A program made the translations under genes and the position numbers. This document shows positions 3,726 to 34,914 of a stretch of DNA of 35,236 nt, piece by piece (the first letter of the stretch is position 1; each line of letters begins with the position of its first letter). A model generated the notes under the pieces. It worked only from the letters and a program-made list of their open reading frames with translations. It was not told the DNA's origin and did not search any database. Source of the DNA: a virus; IMG/VR virus record IMGVR_UViG_3300028840_004195, positions 1-35,236 of that record, one strand, 5' to 3'.

Positions 3726-4481
3726 ATGCCTACCCCAGCAAACATTGCTAAGTATCAATACAAAGATTCAATTAATCGTCGCTACTGGGACGAAAAGTTC
3801 ATCTACGAGAACTTCAAAGAAAACCCTGTGTCGGCAGCCGTTGGTGGTGGAGCTGCTACAGGAACGGCTGGTGACGAAAACGTCCTTATGTTCCCAGCAA
3901 CTGGCTTTGAATATCACATCCTAGGCACTCAAACAATTCTAGCTCCGAAGATTACAGCGGAAGGTCTAGACCTAGGTTCTATGGACGCTACAGCCGATGA
4001 CGGTTTGGAGCTAAACCATGGTATTCTAAGTTCTCAGATTCCTAGCTTTACAGTCGGAACAGACGCTGCATTCTACTTGCGTGCTCGCTTCTCTATTGCT
4101 GATGTTTCAGGAACAGATGATTGTGTTGTTGGCTTCCGAAAAGTAGAGGCTAACCAGGCTAACGTCGACGACTATGCAGACATGGCAGCTCTTAATGTCA
4201 TTTCTGGAGATATCAATATCGAAACGATTGTCGGTGGAGCAGCTACTGTAACAACAGATACAACAGATAATTGGGCTGATACAGAAACTCATGAACTAAG
4301 AATTTTAGTAAGCGCAGCAGGCGTTGTTACCTATCAAATTGATGGTGCAGCTCCAACAACAACAGCGGCATATACATTTACAGATGGCTTGAATGTAATG
4401 CCGTTCTTCTACTTACTGAACGATACAGACTTACACGGTTCTGTTCCTCTTATGGAATGGGAATGTGGATATCAGGCATAA
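3726..4481 (+). CDS. virion structural/surface protein, beta-sandwich type, 251 aa
   Basis: The first 35 residues are helical and charged (K-Y-Q-Y-K-D-S-I-N-R-R-Y-W). The remainder is alanine/threonine/glycine-rich with many alternating strands, including F-Y-L-R-A-R-F-S-I-A and H-E-L-R-I-L-V-S-A, and a V-T-Y-Q-I-D-G-A segment. This resembles concanavalin/LamG-like beta-sandwich domains of phage decoration or adhesin proteins. AAAGGAGG precedes the ATG. It is followed by a strong terminator at 4497-4534 and then another surface protein. A virion role is inferred from composition and neighbour type. Confidence 0.5.
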   Translation: MPTPANIAKYQYKDSINRRYWDEKFIYENFKENPVSAAVGGGAATGTAGDENVLMFPATGFEYHILGTQTILAPKITAEGLDLGSMDATADDGLELNHGILSSQIPSFTVGTDAAFYLRARFSIADVSGTDDCVVGFRKVEANQANVDDYADMAALNVISGDINIETIVGGAATVTTDTTDNWADTETHELRILVSAAGVVTYQIDGAAPTTTAAYTFTDGLNVMPFFYLLNDTDLHGSVPLMEWECGYQA

Positions 4482-4496
4482 CCTTGCATTCTTTCT

Positions 4497-4534
4497 GCGA
4501 GGGGAAGGCTCTCCCCTTCCCTTCGCTTCTTTTA
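4497..4534 (+). terminator. rho-independent terminator
   Basis: A 12-bp stem (4497-4508 with 4515-4526, one G-T wobble) encloses a six-base loop and is followed by TTCTTTT. It lies 16 bases after the preceding stop codon and 24 bases before the next start, so it may be a partial terminator lowering expression of the following adhesin-like gene. Confidence 0.8.
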
Positions 4535-4549
4535 AAACATAGGTGAAAT

Positions 4550-5791
4550 ATGGGCAGTATTGGTTCGATTGGAAGCGCAACTTCCGATGCAATCTTAGAA
4601 GATATCAGGACTGGTGTTGCTCCAGGACTTGACTTGGAGAGTGACGCTGGACAAGCTGGAAATGTCTCCGCATTTGGAGAGACACTAGTGGCTCCTTTAG
4701 AGCCTAGATTCTTGGCTCATTTCCCTTACAACGCGAACACGAATCTTGTGACTGATGCAAGCACAGGCAGCGGATCTATTTCTCATAGCGGTCAGTTTAT
4801 TTCATCCAATAGTGGAGCTGCGACTTCATCTAGTGGTGTCATGAGAAGTACAGGGGTTGTTGAGTACTTCCCAGGAATGGGAGGATTAGTCCGCTTTACT
4901 TGCATCTTCGACACAGGAGTTGCTGGGAACGATCAAGTCATAGGGATAGGGAACGATTCGGATGGTTTTTTCTTCGGGTATAATGGAACTTCCTTCGGGG
5001 TCATGAGAAGGTCTGGAGGTTCCGATACCTGGATTCCTCAGTCTTCCTGGTCAGAAGATACAATGGATGGGACTGGGCCTTCTGGTCTTACCTTTGATCC
5101 CTCTAAAGGGAATGTCTTTCAGATTAAGTACCAATGGCTTGGATTTGGTGCGATACGATTCTATATGGAAAATCAAACAACTGGTGCATTCCAGCTTGTC
5201 CATGTGATTAGTTACGCGAACCAAAACACCGTAACGACCATTGAAAACCCGACTCTTCCATTCTGTATGTCTTCAACGAACACAACCAACAACACCGACA
5301 TCAGCTTAAAGACTGCCAGTATTGGGATGTATAACGAGGGAGCTACTGACTATGACCAATTCCCAAGATACAGTGTTTCAAATACCAAGACTCTCACAAC
5401 ACTCTTAAACATATTAACCATTCAAAATAAATCCACCTATGCGTCTATAACCAACCAAGTCAGAATTCAGCCAGACTTCCTGTCCATGGCTACAGATGGC
5501 ACTAAAAATGTAGAAATTCAGGTGTATCTAAACCCTACGGTTGGTGGGACTCCAAGCTTTACAGACATTGACACTACAAATAGCGTGATGGCTTATGATG
5601 TTGCAGGAACAACCATTTCAGGCGGGAGAGTATTAGGCTCGTTCTACTTGGCGAAGAATGATTCTCTTTTCATTCCTCTAAATGAATACAACTGGCTTCT
5701 TGCACCAGGCAATGAGCTTGTTTTTGCCGCTGTCAGCTCTGCCTCTTCTGATGTAAGCGTTTCGATTGGATGGAAAGAGCGGTTTGCTTAA
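4550..5791 (+). CDS. large virion surface / adhesin-like protein, 413 aa
   Basis: It starts with a small-residue repeat (M-G-S-I-G-S-I-G-S-A). Residues about 70-270 form a beta-rich domain with G-F-F-F-G-Y-N-G-T-S-F-G-V and W-L-G-F-G-A-I-R-F-Y-M-E, a pattern I associate with beta-sandwich structural or adhesin domains of large viruses and phages. The C-terminal 130 residues (L-L-N-I-L-T-I-Q-N-K to G-W-K-E-R-F-A) look like a second beta domain. There are no coiled coils or transmembrane segments. It is likely exposed on the virion for attachment. It ends in a four-base tail-to-tail overlap with the minus-strand block. Confidence 0.5.
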   Translation: MGSIGSIGSATSDAILEDIRTGVAPGLDLESDAGQAGNVSAFGETLVAPLEPRFLAHFPYNANTNLVTDASTGSGSISHSGQFISSNSGAATSSSGVMRSTGVVEYFPGMGGLVRFTCIFDTGVAGNDQVIGIGNDSDGFFFGYNGTSFGVMRRSGGSDTWIPQSSWSEDTMDGTGPSGLTFDPSKGNVFQIKYQWLGFGAIRFYMENQTTGAFQLVHVISYANQNTVTTIENPTLPFCMSSTNTTNNTDISLKTASIGMYNEGATDYDQFPRYSVSNTKTLTTLLNILTIQNKSTYASITNQVRIQPDFLSMATDGTKNVEIQVYLNPTVGGTPSFTDIDTTNSVMAYDVAGTTISGGRVLGSFYLAKNDSLFIPLNEYNWLLAPGNELVFAAVSSASSDVSVSIGWKERFA

Positions 5792-5973: not shown

Positions 5974-6082
5974 CGACACGCCCCTGGTTGGTTGGGAAGT
6001 GACAGTCTACGTCTTCAGCTACTTTCTTTTCTTGCTCTATGATTTTCTGAATAGGCTTATTGATTGGTCGCATTGTGGTCAT
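5828..6082 (-). CDS. overlapping ORF, 84 aa, uncertain
   Basis: It begins M-T-T-M-R-P-I-N-K-P-I-Q-K-I-I-E with GAGG six bases before the ATG at 6082, inside the end of the preceding gene, so initiation is credible. After about residue 34 the sequence becomes R/N/S/H-rich and unstructured, and there it overlaps the frame of the 5788-5973 gene by 146 bases. Either the true protein is short and its tail is incidental, or it and the next gene were once one reading frame. No function assigned. Confidence 0.35.
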   Translation of the reverse strand: MTTMRPINKPIQKIIEQEKKVAEDVDCHFPTNQGRVDEISRHRFSRNGNQKLRFGIRDGSVDHSASVREQTEDRQVHNEDNVKG

Positions 6083-6314
6083 TTGCTTCCTCTGTCTCTT
6101 TTGAGAAAACCACTTCCTTTACATGAATTGAGCATATTTCGCTGATGTCTAATAGGATGGCTCCATCGGATGTATCCAACAAAACACCCTTGTCCTTTGA
6201 GTTTACAACTCCTACCAGTGAAGAGAGATAATCTTTTGAGTCAGACTCTGAATCTATGATTGAGAATCTATTCTTTTCGCCATTTTTAAAAATAACATCA
6301 ACTACTAGGTTCAT
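6057..6314 (-). CDS. hypothetical protein, 85 aa
   Basis: It begins M-N-L-V-V-D-V-I-F-K-N-G-E-K and has strands rich in V, I and L with acidic turns, including G-A-I-L-L-D-I-S-E-I and I-H-V-K-E-V-V. It is a compact beta-rich soluble protein. A short Sm-like or SH3-like barrel is conceivable, but no diagnostic motif is seen. GGGAG precedes the ATG by four bases and the start lies within the previous gene, so translation is coupled. Confidence 0.5.
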   Translation of the reverse strand: MNLVVDVIFKNGEKNRFSIIDSESDSKDYLSSLVGVVNSKDKGVLLDTSDGAILLDISEICSIHVKEVVFSKETEEANDHNATNQ

Positions 6315-6633
6315 CTTTCTCCCAGGGGTCTTTTAATTTTTTCTCAGAAAAATACTTCTGTAAAGCCAGCTTTACATGGTCTTGGAATGGCTGGGAAAAC
6401 TTCTCACCGAACCACCACATGTTTGCATACTTGGTTTGACCAGTCTTCTTGCATATGTATCGCTCTGCCGGAGGAGCAACGTATAACCCACCATCTTTCT
6501 TCCTGATGAGCTTAGCTTTACTCAAAAAAAGATCTAAAGAGGTTACATGGATCCCCATTGTTCCAAGGATAGAGTTATCCTGGTCTAGATTTTGATTATA
6601 GAATGTTATTTTGACAGATGCAGAGTCTTCCAC
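6298..6633 (-). CDS. SpoVG-like or small DNA-binding protein (tentative), 111 aa
   Basis: A first strand V-K-I-T-F-Y-N is followed by a helix (S-L-D-L-F-L-S-K), then K-L-I-R-K-K-D-G-G-L-Y-V-A-P-P, and a C-terminal helix F-Q-D-H-V-K-L-A-L-Q-K-Y-F. This order, with the G-L-Y/F-V-A-x-P signature, resembles the SpoVG family of small nucleic-acid-binding regulators, but R-Y-I-C-K-K and the M-W-W-F segment are extra. The GTG at 6633 is preceded by AAGGGG. It is the first gene of this minus-strand block. The assignment rests on pattern only. Confidence 0.35.
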   Translation of the reverse strand: MEDSASVKITFYNQNLDQDNSILGTMGIHVTSLDLFLSKAKLIRKKDGGLYVAPPAERYICKKTGQTKYANMWWFGEKFSQPFQDHVKLALQKYFSEKKLKDPWEKDEPSS

Positions 6634-6749
6634 CTTTTTCCCCTTATACTGATTGTTTCACGGGACACTATATCACATAGATGACATGAGATCGATAAAA
6701 AAACCACGCCCGAAAGCGTGGCACCTCTCTTTGCAGGAAGCTGTCAATC
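6634..6749. other. intergenic start of the long gene-poor leader
   Basis: No gene is seen here. On the minus strand TATAAG near 6645 precedes the GTG at 6633 but has no clear -35. A minus-strand terminator occupies 6697-6721. No convincing + strand promoter was found, so the start point of any leader transcript for the replication genes is unknown. Confidence 0.4.
6697..6721 (-). terminator. rho-independent terminator on the minus strand
   Basis: CCACGC (6704-6709) pairs with GCGTGG (6716-6721) around a six-base loop. On the minus strand the stem is followed at once by seven T residues (complement of 6697-6703). It would stop antisense transcripts arriving from the right, such as read-through from the minus-strand terminase, before they enter the 6633-5788 block. 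Confidence 0.75.
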
Positions 6750-6968
6750 ATGAAGGAGGAAGAGATCATCACATCCCAACAAAGGAGGCTAGCACAGGAA
6801 GTTGGTAGAAGAGATCACCCTATCACGACAATGAAAACGGGTCAATCTAAACAGAAGATAATAACAAGAGTTTTCGCAACAGAGTTTCCCCTGGGAGGTT
6901 TCCAAAAGATCACTAGCCCAAAACTGGGCGAGTCAACTAAGGTAGTAATTTGCAATAAAAGAGGTTGA
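6750..6968 (+). CDS. doubtful ORF in the leader region, 72 aa
   Basis: This frame starts M-K-E-E-E-I-I-T-S-Q-Q-R-R and ends C-N-K-R-G. AGGAAG lies nine bases upstream, so translation is possible. The composition is basic and shows no domain. It contains the hairpin at 6912-6933, and its stop lies in the closing stem of a larger RNA structure. It may be a leader peptide, a real small gene or a chance frame over a structured RNA. I favour the last. Confidence 0.25.
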   Translation: MKEEEIITSQQRRLAQEVGRRDHPITTMKTGQSKQKIITRVFATEFPLGGFQKITSPKLGESTKVVICNKRG

Positions 6969-7143
6969 GAGACCCCCATAAAGGGGGCCGATCTCTTTGG
7001 TGCATTTGAAGGGCTGGAACCCTTTAAGTGCCTAAGTAAATCAGAGAAAGAGACTCTGAATTACCGTCTAAGATATCCACAAGATATCATCCAACGGCTT
7101 AATTCTCAACGTTTCTCTCTCCTAGCTTCAACAGGAGAAGTGA
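6911..7143 (+). ncRNA. structured 5' leader / candidate cis-regulatory RNA
   Basis: Stems found by eye: 6916-6920 with 6925-6929, plus ACT/AGT flanks; a closing stem GTTGAGA 6964-6970 with TCTCAAC 7104-7110; inside it CCCCC 6973-6977 with GGGGG 6983-6987, a 12-bp stem 7002-7013 with 7020-7031 (two G-T wobbles, loop CTGGAA), TCAGAG 7041-7046 with CTCTGA 7054-7059, and GATATC 7072-7077 with 7083-7088 nested in CCGT 7064-7067 with ACGG 7094-7097. A last hairpin, TCTCCT 7118-7123 with AGGAGA 7133-7138, buries the ribosome site of the initiator gene. Several helices in one junction suggest a folded regulatory RNA. No known riboswitch class is recognised. Confidence 0.45.
7118..7138 (+). promoter_or_regulatory. 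hairpin masking the ribosome binding site of the initiator gene
   Basis: AGGAG (7133-7137), six bases before the ATG at 7144, is fully paired with CTCCT (7119-7123) in a six-pair stem with a nine-base loop. The pyrimidine arm could instead pair with GAGAGA at 6967-6972, giving two exclusive states. This is a plausible translational switch controlling the replication gene. Confidence 0.5.
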
Positions 7144-7956
7144 ATGTCTATACTTAATCTATTAAATTCAAACGACTATCAAATTTATAATCGTACCGTT
7201 TCCAGGGAGCTGGATAGCATCTATGCGGCAATCATGCTATCGGAATTAATAAACAGACGTGAATACCACATTGAGAAAGGCCATGAACATTTGGAGCATG
7301 AAGGTAAGAGGTGGTTCTACTACACGGTAGATAAATGCAAGGAACGTACTGATTTTGGTGTGAAAATGCAGTCCACTGCCATTAAAAAATTGAAAGCAAG
7401 GGGATTAATAAAGGTCTGCCAGAAGGGATTGCCAGCCAAGAGGTATTTTTGGCTTGATGAAGAAAAAATATTGGAGCTTTTTTTGGATTCAAAAAGTAAA
7501 TCTAGATCGGTCCAAAGGGCAGAACAAGAACCCGACTCGGAGACCGATCTAGAGAGTGCGCGGAGGCCGACCTCTCATATATATAAGAACCCTAGTAAAG
7601 AACCTAAAGAAAGAGAGAAAGAAAGAAACAAAGAAAGAGAAAAAGGGGGCAAGCCCCCTAACCCCCCGCGCGCCCCTCATGTTTTTTCTTCTGATGATGA
7701 ACATAGAAAACTTGCTGAAGAATACGGAGAGGAGCTGAGAGACCAGGCTTACCAAGTACTCAGCGACTGGAAAGAAGACACACCCAAGAGCAAATGGAAA
7801 AAATCTGACTATCGGAGCATACGACGATGGGTAATCGACTCGATCAAGGAAAAGAAACCAAGTCATAGGTCACCACCTACCAACAGAAATCAAACCTGTT
7901 GGGGGGATGCAGCCGATTCGCAATACCATAATCGACCAGACAATATCGACATTTAG
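7144..7956 (+). CDS. phage replication initiator with winged helix-turn-helix
   Basis: 270 aa. Residues about 24-105 form a winged helix-turn-helix as in phage O-type or replisome-organiser proteins: a first helix S-I-Y-A-A-I-M-L-S-E-L, the W-F-Y-Y-T motif, a helix after K-E-R-T-D-F-G, the recognition helix T-A-I-K-K-L-K-A-R-G-L-I, and a wing with K-G-L-P-A-K-R-Y-F. A long charged linker (about 115-180, very rich in K and E) leads to a C-terminal helical domain (186-245, with Y-R-S-I-R-R-W-V-I-D). The family binds repeats in the origin, often within its own gene, and recruits a helicase loader. The next gene encodes that loader. The ribosome site is buried in a hairpin. Confidence 0.75.
   Translation: MSILNLLNSNDYQIYNRTVSRELDSIYAAIMLSELINRREYHIEKGHEHLEHEGKRWFYYTVDKCKERTDFGVKMQSTAIKKLKARGLIKVCQKGLPAKRYFWLDEEKILELFLDSKSKSRSVQRAEQEPDSETDLESARRPTSHIYKNPSKEPKEREKERNKEREKGGKPPNPPRAPHVFSSDDEHRKLAEEYGEELRDQAYQVLSDWKEDTPKSKWKKSDYRSIRRWVIDSIKEKKPSHRSPPTNRNQTCWGDAADSQYHNRPDNIDI
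7501..7667. other. candidate replication origin inside the initiator gene
   Basis: A perfect 12-bp inverted repeat (7501-7512 and 7542-7553, arm TCTAGATCGGTC, 29-base spacer) is followed by an AT-rich CATATATATAAG (7576-7587), a purine tract of about 55 bases, and a GGGGGC/GCCCCC dyad at 7645-7658. Lambdoid phages have origins in the linker-coding part of the initiator gene with just this order of binding repeats and an unwinding region. The encoded residues are the low-complexity linker, which tolerates such a constraint. Confidence 0.4.
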
Positions 7957-7965
7957 GAGGCGGAT

Positions 7966-8853
7966 ATGAGATTGCACAAAGACCCCGAGAGCTTTCATAA
8001 CGCTGTAAAGATGGCCGAGGAATATGTGAAAGGTATGGCTCCAAACCCAAGACCTGGGCAGCTATTTACAGCGGTATGGGCAGGACCAGCTAGAGTGAAT
8101 CTACTGGATAAGCCGACCAATAGAAACGAACTATCATGCCCTCGATGCGCAGGAACAAGAGGTTACACCGTTCGTGGAGGAATTCCCAAAGAGCTGGTAG
8201 ACAAACTAGGCTTTGGGACAGTTCTTTCAGACAAAGAAGTTGCCTGGGCCTGCAATAGCTCAGAGTGCTTGGATTCATTTTTGGCGAGACCCATGAGAAG
8301 TCAACAAACCGCTTCAACAGGAATCAATGAGAGATTACAATCTATGGGATTCCCAAAAGCGTACTTGAGTGTCTTGGAAAAAGAATGGAATCAGAGGGAT
8401 GAAGTTGTTAGGTTTGGAGCTAAATACGCAAGAATGCCAGACAAGCCACTTATGATCACAGGACCTAACGGAACAGGTAAAACGTTCACCGCTTGCAGAA
8501 TAGGCGCACTCTTCGTGAAAAATAGTGGTTCTGTCGCGAGATTCTGGAATACAAGCTCTCTGTCCGTGAAGTGGAGAGAGCTGTCAACGGAACCGCGAAG
8601 CTTAATGCACTTTACTATATCATTGTCTGAGTCACCAATTCTAATTTTAGATGATTTGGGAATTAGATGTCCCACAGATGCTTTCATGGATTTTTTGTAT
8701 CAAATTATAAACAACCGCGATGAAGCTATGTTACCAACGATCGTCACCACTAATCTTGATGACAGAAAGCTATCGGAGCAGTTTGGAAACGCAATTTCTA
8801 GCAGAATTGGAGCTGGATTTAGAATTACGTTAGATGGAAAGGATCGTCGATAG
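7966..8853 (+). CDS. DnaC-like AAA+ helicase loader
   Basis: 295 aa. The N-terminal part carries a four-cysteine zinc site (C58, C61, C96, C101). The ATPase domain has Walker A GPNGTGKT at 166-173, Walker B I-L-I-L-D-D at 225-230, sensor-1 T-T-N at 261-263 and an arginine-finger candidate in S-S-R-I-G (R280). This matches phage DnaC/DnaI-like loaders that place the host replicative helicase on the origin. GGAGG lies five bases before the ATG, and the start is nine bases after the initiator gene, so the two form a replication pair. The zinc site may mediate contact with the helicase or initiator. No helicase gene is seen in the window. Confidence 0.85.
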   Translation: MRLHKDPESFHNAVKMAEEYVKGMAPNPRPGQLFTAVWAGPARVNLLDKPTNRNELSCPRCAGTRGYTVRGGIPKELVDKLGFGTVLSDKEVAWACNSSECLDSFLARPMRSQQTASTGINERLQSMGFPKAYLSVLEKEWNQRDEVVRFGAKYARMPDKPLMITGPNGTGKTFTACRIGALFVKNSGSVARFWNTSSLSVKWRELSTEPRSLMHFTISLSESPILILDDLGIRCPTDAFMDFLYQIINNRDEAMLPTIVTTNLDDRKLSEQFGNAISSRIGAGFRITLDGKDRR

Positions 8854-9041
8854 CCATAGGGCTTGCAGAAACATAGGTAGATTTGCGCAACGCGCAAAAA
8901 ACGTAGAATCACACACAGAAAAACCAATCTCTCAACCTACCCCCTTTAAAACGCGAAAACGAAAGCCTGTAATTTATTGACATTAAATCAAGATCGTGAC
9001 ACAGTGTTTTAATGTAAAGACACAAAAAGGCGACGAGTGAA
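8854..9041. promoter_or_regulatory. intergenic region with two dyads
   Basis: No gene is seen. TTGCGC (8883-8888) and GCGCAA (8892-8897) form a tight hairpin without a T-run, so it is not a standard terminator. ACATTAAA (8980-8987) and TTTAATGT (9008-9015) form a perfect 8-bp inverted repeat with a 20-base spacer. A consensus TTGACA at 8977-8982 overlaps its left arm, but no good -10 box is seen 16-18 bases on. It may be an operator or RNA stem ahead of the next gene. Confidence 0.35.
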
Positions 9042-34339: not shown

Positions 34340-34879
34340 TTAGTGAGAGAAAATCCATTCTTCACCTTTGTAATAATGAGACCAAAATTGATCTCTTCCC
34401 CATAATTCCCAGTCGATACAAAATTTTATGCAATCAGGAACGTTATCGAGTAAACCGCAATCAGTTGCGTAATCTTCAAGAATGTTATCCATTCTATCAC
34501 CGCTTCCTATATAATTTTCTTGCGCAAACTCCAAAACTGTATTTGGTCCTAGTTCAAGAACACTTTCACTTGTTGCATCTACATAAGCAGAAAGTAAATC
34601 CCTGTCGTATTCGTCCATTTCTTCAAGCTCCCAGAGATATGATGAAACATCACATTCACTTGCCAAATCAAAAGGAATATTTTGCCAATCCTGAAACATG
34701 TATTCGCAATCTTGCTCATCTTTATGAAGTTCAACGCAAGCCTCAATGAAAGATTCTCTATCAGAATAATCTAAGGGATAGAGCCAATCACCTGAAAGAT
34801 TCCCCTGATTGTATTTTGCATAAGTTCCAACGTAAATTGCTGGATCGTAATCTCTTATAGTTTTTGTTTGTGTACTCAT
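34340..34879 (-). CDS. ardA: ArdA antirestriction protein (DNA mimic)
   Basis: 179 aa from the ATG at 34879. The N-terminal domain has the ArdA pattern I-Y-V-G-T-Y-A-K-Y-N-Q-G (residues 15-26), G-x-W-L near 30-33, a helix with E-A-C-x-E-L-H-K-D-E, then M-F-Q-D-W. The rest is strongly acidic (many D and E), giving the negative surface that mimics bent DNA. ArdA binds type I restriction enzymes as a DNA-like dimer and blocks restriction of incoming DNA. As the first gene behind an extended -10 promoter with an overlapping operator, it would be expressed early and be repressible. This is the clearest anti-defence gene in the window. Confidence 0.85.
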   Translation of the reverse strand: MSTQTKTIRDYDPAIYVGTYAKYNQGNLSGDWLYPLDYSDRESFIEACVELHKDEQDCEYMFQDWQNIPFDLASECDVSSYLWELEEMDEYDRDLLSAYVDATSESVLELGPNTVLEFAQENYIGSGDRMDNILEDYATDCGLLDNVPDCIKFCIDWELWGRDQFWSHYYKGEEWIFSH

Positions 34880-34914
34880 TTTACATCTCAAATTCACTCT
34901 CTTTATTGAGTGTT

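Follow-up and report, generated by a model that had tools for sequence, protein, structure and literature searches.

The window analysed here is a virus record of 35,236 bases. A comparison of its region 6001-9000 with 50,697 phage records brought up nothing closely similar. On its + strand, a folded leader is followed by a gene for an O-like replication initiator (7144-7956; phrog_13246, 4e-12, and phrog_678, 1e-9) and then by a gene for a DnaC-like helicase loader (7966-8853; phrog_50, 2e-27, and PF01695 IstB_IS21, 5e-9). An earlier note, made from the sequence without database searches, had placed the leader directly before a replication initiator gene, and the O-like gene indeed starts at 7144. 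Within the initiator gene, a block at 7501-7650 combines a 12-bp inverted repeat (TCTAGATCGGTC/GACCGATCTAGA), an AT palindrome and a purine-rich tract. It looks like a replication origin and is treated below as a putative one. Upstream, a 72-aa ORF on the + strand (6750-6968) ends inside the stem that closes the folded element (left arm at 6964-6970). Its codon score (0.11) is similar to those of other small genes of the window, and it is possibly a small regulator gene. No family matched it, and a fold prediction, run to check for a Cro-like identity, gave no confident fold (pLDDT 48). The ORF also contains an imperfect 24-nt direct repeat (6759-6782 and 6808-6831, 79% identical, spacing 49) that could be an operator pair.

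The structured core of the leader covers about 150 nt (6962-7111), with a folding energy of -55.5 kcal/mol. Against 200 dinucleotide shuffles its z score is -5.9 on the + strand and -4.8 on the - strand, and none of the shuffles folded as well. The full span 6911-7143 gives -4.7 and -3.9, respectively. Of 320 windows, each 150 nt long, that were scanned over the 35 kb, the core ranks first (z -6.25), and the stretches directly upstream of it are ordinary (z 0.93 at 6711 and 0.07 at 6821). The structure is thus more than incidental, as had been proposed, and all the stems named in that proposal are present at their coordinates. The absence of any recognized riboswitch was also borne out, since nothing in the window matched Rfam at the gathering score and the region 6640-7200 returned only sub-threshold chance matches. 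The leader is therefore a real, strongly folded element that does not belong to a known riboswitch family. The earlier note went further and read it as a folded junction RNA. Structure beyond chance stands, but the assignment to a junction RNA within the mRNA does not follow: the two strands fold about equally well, so that energy does not tell which strand is used, and the closing stem of the + strand RNA depends on its context.

This closing stem pairs GTTGAGA (6964-6970) with TCTCAAC (7104-7110). A 7-bp stem is by itself not unusual: by our rough estimate, chance alone would give about 0.7 such stems per 150 nt. In + strand RNA its pairing probability is 0.98 for the core alone, 0.36-0.39 in about 210-230 nt and 0.02 in 500 nt; in - strand RNA it is 0.97 in 233 nt and 0.45 in 500 nt. 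The weakening in longer + strand RNA is partly due to competition from the pairing of AAAGAGGTTG with CGATCTCTTT. Inside the closing stem lie four hairpins. CCCCC-ATAAA-GGGGG (6973-6987) pairs, when the core is taken alone, with a probability of 0.91 on one strand and 1.00 on the other. It is followed by a 12-bp hairpin, GCATTTGAAGGG/CCCTTTAAGTGC (7002-7031), which includes two G.U pairs and is intact only as + strand RNA (pairing probability 0.99-1.00 on the + strand, 0.76 on the - strand). Both this stem and AAAGAGGTTG/CGATCTCTTT use G.U pairs on the + strand that read as mismatches on the - strand. TCAGAG/CTCTGA (7041-7059) was found by folding and by pairing probability. The last hairpin, predicted by folding, is GATATC-CACAA-GATATC inside a CCG/CGG outer pair (7064-7097), and it resembles AGATACCACAAAGATATC of the leader of L022, one of the relatives described below (p = 0.003 for the local similarity, uncorrected for the 28 pairs compared). 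Beyond the core, on the + strand, a TCTCCT/AGGAGA hairpin (7118-7138) covers the likely Shine-Dalgarno sequence, with a pairing probability of 0.81-0.85 in contexts of 210-233 nt and 0.01 in 500 nt. We rejected sequestration of this sequence as a special feature, as the start site, with an opening energy of 6.45 kcal/mol, is no more closed than that of 62% of 69 control genes.

Two features of the region point leftward. On the - strand, a hairpin that together with its T run resembles an intrinsic terminator (6727-6698, -12.9 kcal/mol) separates the upstream genes from the O-type initiator, whose start is 446 nt away. It lies about 235-264 nt to the left of the structured core, beyond the possible ORF at 6750-6968. 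A candidate leftward promoter, TTGAGA-17-TATCTT with an extended -10 (TGATATCTT), is predicted at 7109-7081, within the core, its -10 element covering 7086-7081. No other - strand site in the leader region scores higher; it exceeds 98% of shuffles (p 0.02) and is a weak prediction. A leftward site at the initiator start codon scored p 0.48 by the same comparison.

For comparison we gathered seven relatives. L002, L003, L007 and L008 share 42-47% identity with the initiator over its N-terminal part, and L022 and L025, further initiator relatives, show 47-49% identity. L009, the nearest phage by portal gene, was found through its portal protein (66% identity), but in the corresponding position its initiator is a different one. 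Alignments of the portal, the 6298-6633 gene and the initiator yielded no closer relatives than these loci. Initiator-like ORFs are repeated in two of them: in L008 a second, shorter one (4228-4647) lies downstream of the full one, and in L009 consecutive ones with near-identical stretches, as if duplicated, occupy 6024-7736. No homologue of the leader was found by blastn in the fetched loci, in 11 relative records, or by a covariance model run over 25 sources, a model of short reach as it was built from the window sequence alone. None of the seven relatives has a leader that aligns with that of the window, the best local similarity being the L022 hairpin already mentioned. Two exact matches to an 18-nt pattern, in L012 and L013, were rejected as leader homologues because their contexts are unrelated.

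Folded initiator leaders are nevertheless found on the + strand in six of the seven relatives when compared with shuffles, in sequences unrelated to that of the window. Computed with the terminator hairpin excluded, the z scores on this strand are -9.0 in L022, -6.9 in L008, -6.0 in L003 and -4.1 in L025, and the leaders of L002 (-2.7) and L009 (-2.4) fold more weakly. L007 is the exception: between its terminator and the initiator start lie 57 nt, which fold better than shuffles only when read as leftward RNA (z -3.5 versus +0.9). The leaders of L008 and L025 come first within their own loci, those of L003 and L009 second and that of L002 fifth, taking the best of several windows as the leader value; L007 and L022 were too short to be ranked. 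Folding energy was discarded as a guide to the strand, as it is mixed over the loci: the + strand folds better in L025 and L022 and the - strand in L007, with no preference in the window. A small HTH-like gene lies upstream in most relatives, mostly below Pfam cut-offs; the 72-aa ORF of the window is not recognizable as such a gene.

With a cutoff of -12 kcal/mol, for which the background is 0.31 per strand-kb, a leftward terminator is present upstream of the initiator in the window and in six of the seven relatives, 83-446 nt away and with energies of -12.9 to -25.9 kcal/mol. L022 has none. Rightward terminators at the same place and cutoff are absent from all eight loci, and the difference (7 versus 0) gives a two-sided sign-test p of about 0.016 by our arithmetic. 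Separately, L025 has a rightward, attenuator-like terminator hairpin 49 nt ahead of its initiator (2887-2934). The best leftward promoter reaches p 0.02 against shuffles in the window and in L002 and p < 0.02 in L007; it is not significant in the other five loci.

The folded leaders of the relatives, together with the leftward terminators, suggest that the start of replication is under RNA control. Structure, gene order and the leftward terminator with its recurrence in relatives are direct observations; from these we infer a transcribed leader, an active leftward promoter and a regulatory effect. The reading that we favour, though only tentatively and at somewhat less than even chances, is that the leader of the initiator mRNA is regulated by a leftward antisense transcript. 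The element would be the structured leader of the initiator mRNA in a lambda-like replication module and would set the amount of initiator made. A leftward countertranscript would start in the leader or just to its right, run antisense to it and end at 6727-6698. Initiator output could then be lowered by pairing between the folded RNAs or by convergent transcription running into a collision, as in the pO-oop-tO arrangement of lambda and in plasmid Rep leaders.

Several lines of evidence favour this countertranscript: no other segment of the window is as structured as the core; the leaders of relatives fold as well, near the top of their loci where ranked; leftward terminators occur in seven of eight loci and rightward ones in none; and the promoter scores reach p 0.02 (window and L002) or less (L007), the leader of L007 folding leftward only. 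Lambda provides a precedent, with pO opposing pR and replication suffering when pO is lost. Against it, there is no overall strand preference over the loci, five of the eight lack a significant promoter score, L022 lacks the leftward terminator, and the terminator of the window is some 235-264 nt from the core, past a possible ORF. Our reserve stems from the promoter, which scores above 98% of shuffles in the window, yet p 0.02 is reached in only three of the eight loci.

The resemblance to lambda is one of arrangement. As in pO-oop-tO, a leftward terminator lies upstream of an O-type initiator in the window, and here too an origin-like block, putative in our case, lies within the initiator gene, with the loader gene next. 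The OOP RNA of lambda is short, about 77 nt, whereas the terminator of the window is 446 nt from the initiator start. In lambda, pO lies at the start of O, by the first codon, and is directed against pR, the origin is in the middle of O, and the map marks the terminator tO (PMC3985674). The promoter of the window is, in contrast, predicted inside a core of 150 nt. Loss of pO impairs lambda replication, and oop RNA itself did not alter the stability of the O-P mRNA (PMC3985674), so that lambda does not work through antisense action on its initiator. The arrangement also recalls plasmid Rep leaders controlled by countertranscripts, some of which come with a small HTH repressor gene and, within a leader about 320 nt long, an antisense promoter (PMC5703833). 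Like those of pIP501 (RNAIII/RepR with CopR), pT181 (RNAI) and pSK41, the leader of the window is long and folded and has an antisense promoter predicted inside it, and a small HTH-like gene lies nearby in most relatives. Unlike leaders of the attenuation type, it has no + strand attenuator terminator (L025 has one); its initiator is O-like, unlike those of the plasmids, and its antisense transcript is a prediction.

The strongest competitor, possible and nearly as likely as the countertranscript, is a leader of the initiator mRNA that acts in cis without any antisense RNA, the fold of the + transcript controlling translation, processing or stability, perhaps with the initiator or a host protein bound to it. 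Situated between the possible ORF and the initiator gene, the element very probably belongs to the initiator mRNA; the G.U pairs in the 12-bp stem and in AAAGAGGTTG/CGATCTCTTT exist in + RNA only, the z score of the core is lower on the + strand, and the likely Shine-Dalgarno sequence pairs with TCTCCT. Such control in cis fits less well with the ordinary opening energy of the start region (6.45 kcal/mol, with 62% of the 69 controls at least as closed), and it leaves the recurrent leftward terminators unexplained. Those same G.U pairs would be mismatches in DNA, which argues against the unlikely alternative that the inverted repeats act as DNA, for instance as part of a replication origin or as a single-strand initiation site. 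Equal folding of the two strands is what one would expect of DNA, and the repeats adjoin the initiator and the origin-like block, but the origin-like features themselves sit inside the initiator gene, at 7501-7650.

We consider it very improbable that the element is a put-like RNA, which, as in phage HK022, would modify the transcribing RNA polymerase and allow terminators of the early operon to be read through. In both cases a multi-hairpin RNA would lie in an early rightward operon, putR about 270 nt downstream of PR (PMC9378689) and the element of the window at the same distance, about 270 nt, beyond a plausible rightward start region, which we place tentatively near 6690. However, put RNAs are about 70 nt long, with two stem-loops, and occur as two similar copies, one in each early operon (PMC9378689), whereas the core is about twice as long (150 nt) and has four hairpins, and blastn found no second copy in the window. 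There is also a small chance that nothing is regulated here, several hairpins having simply built up between genes, with leftward terminators that do no more than shield the leftward operon from stray transcription. Structure does vary among loci, and the leaders share no clear sequence, the best of 28 pairs reaching p 0.003 before correction; a core that ranks first of 320 windows and structured leaders that are repeated in relatives speak against such an ordinary origin.

If the countertranscript is real, the window might exemplify a previously undescribed class of structured leaders before O-like phage initiators. Folded leader and leftward countertranscript would jointly set the supply of initiator, and distant relatives would have kept position and architecture but not sequence. 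We regard this generalization as rather doubtful at present. Were it to hold, phages with O-like initiators would widely meter their replication by RNA at the initiator leader, the long-debated pO/oop of lambda would be linked to the copy-number control of plasmids, and a leftward terminator combined with a folded leader would provide a positional signature for searching other phages.

Two further ORFs deserve mention. In the window, the ORF at 34340-34897 on the - strand matches the Pfam ArdA antirestriction protein (E 6.5e-19). In L002, a 600-aa ORF on the - strand (455-2257) encodes, as judged by eye from its translation, a recombinase-like protein with an intein-like middle part.
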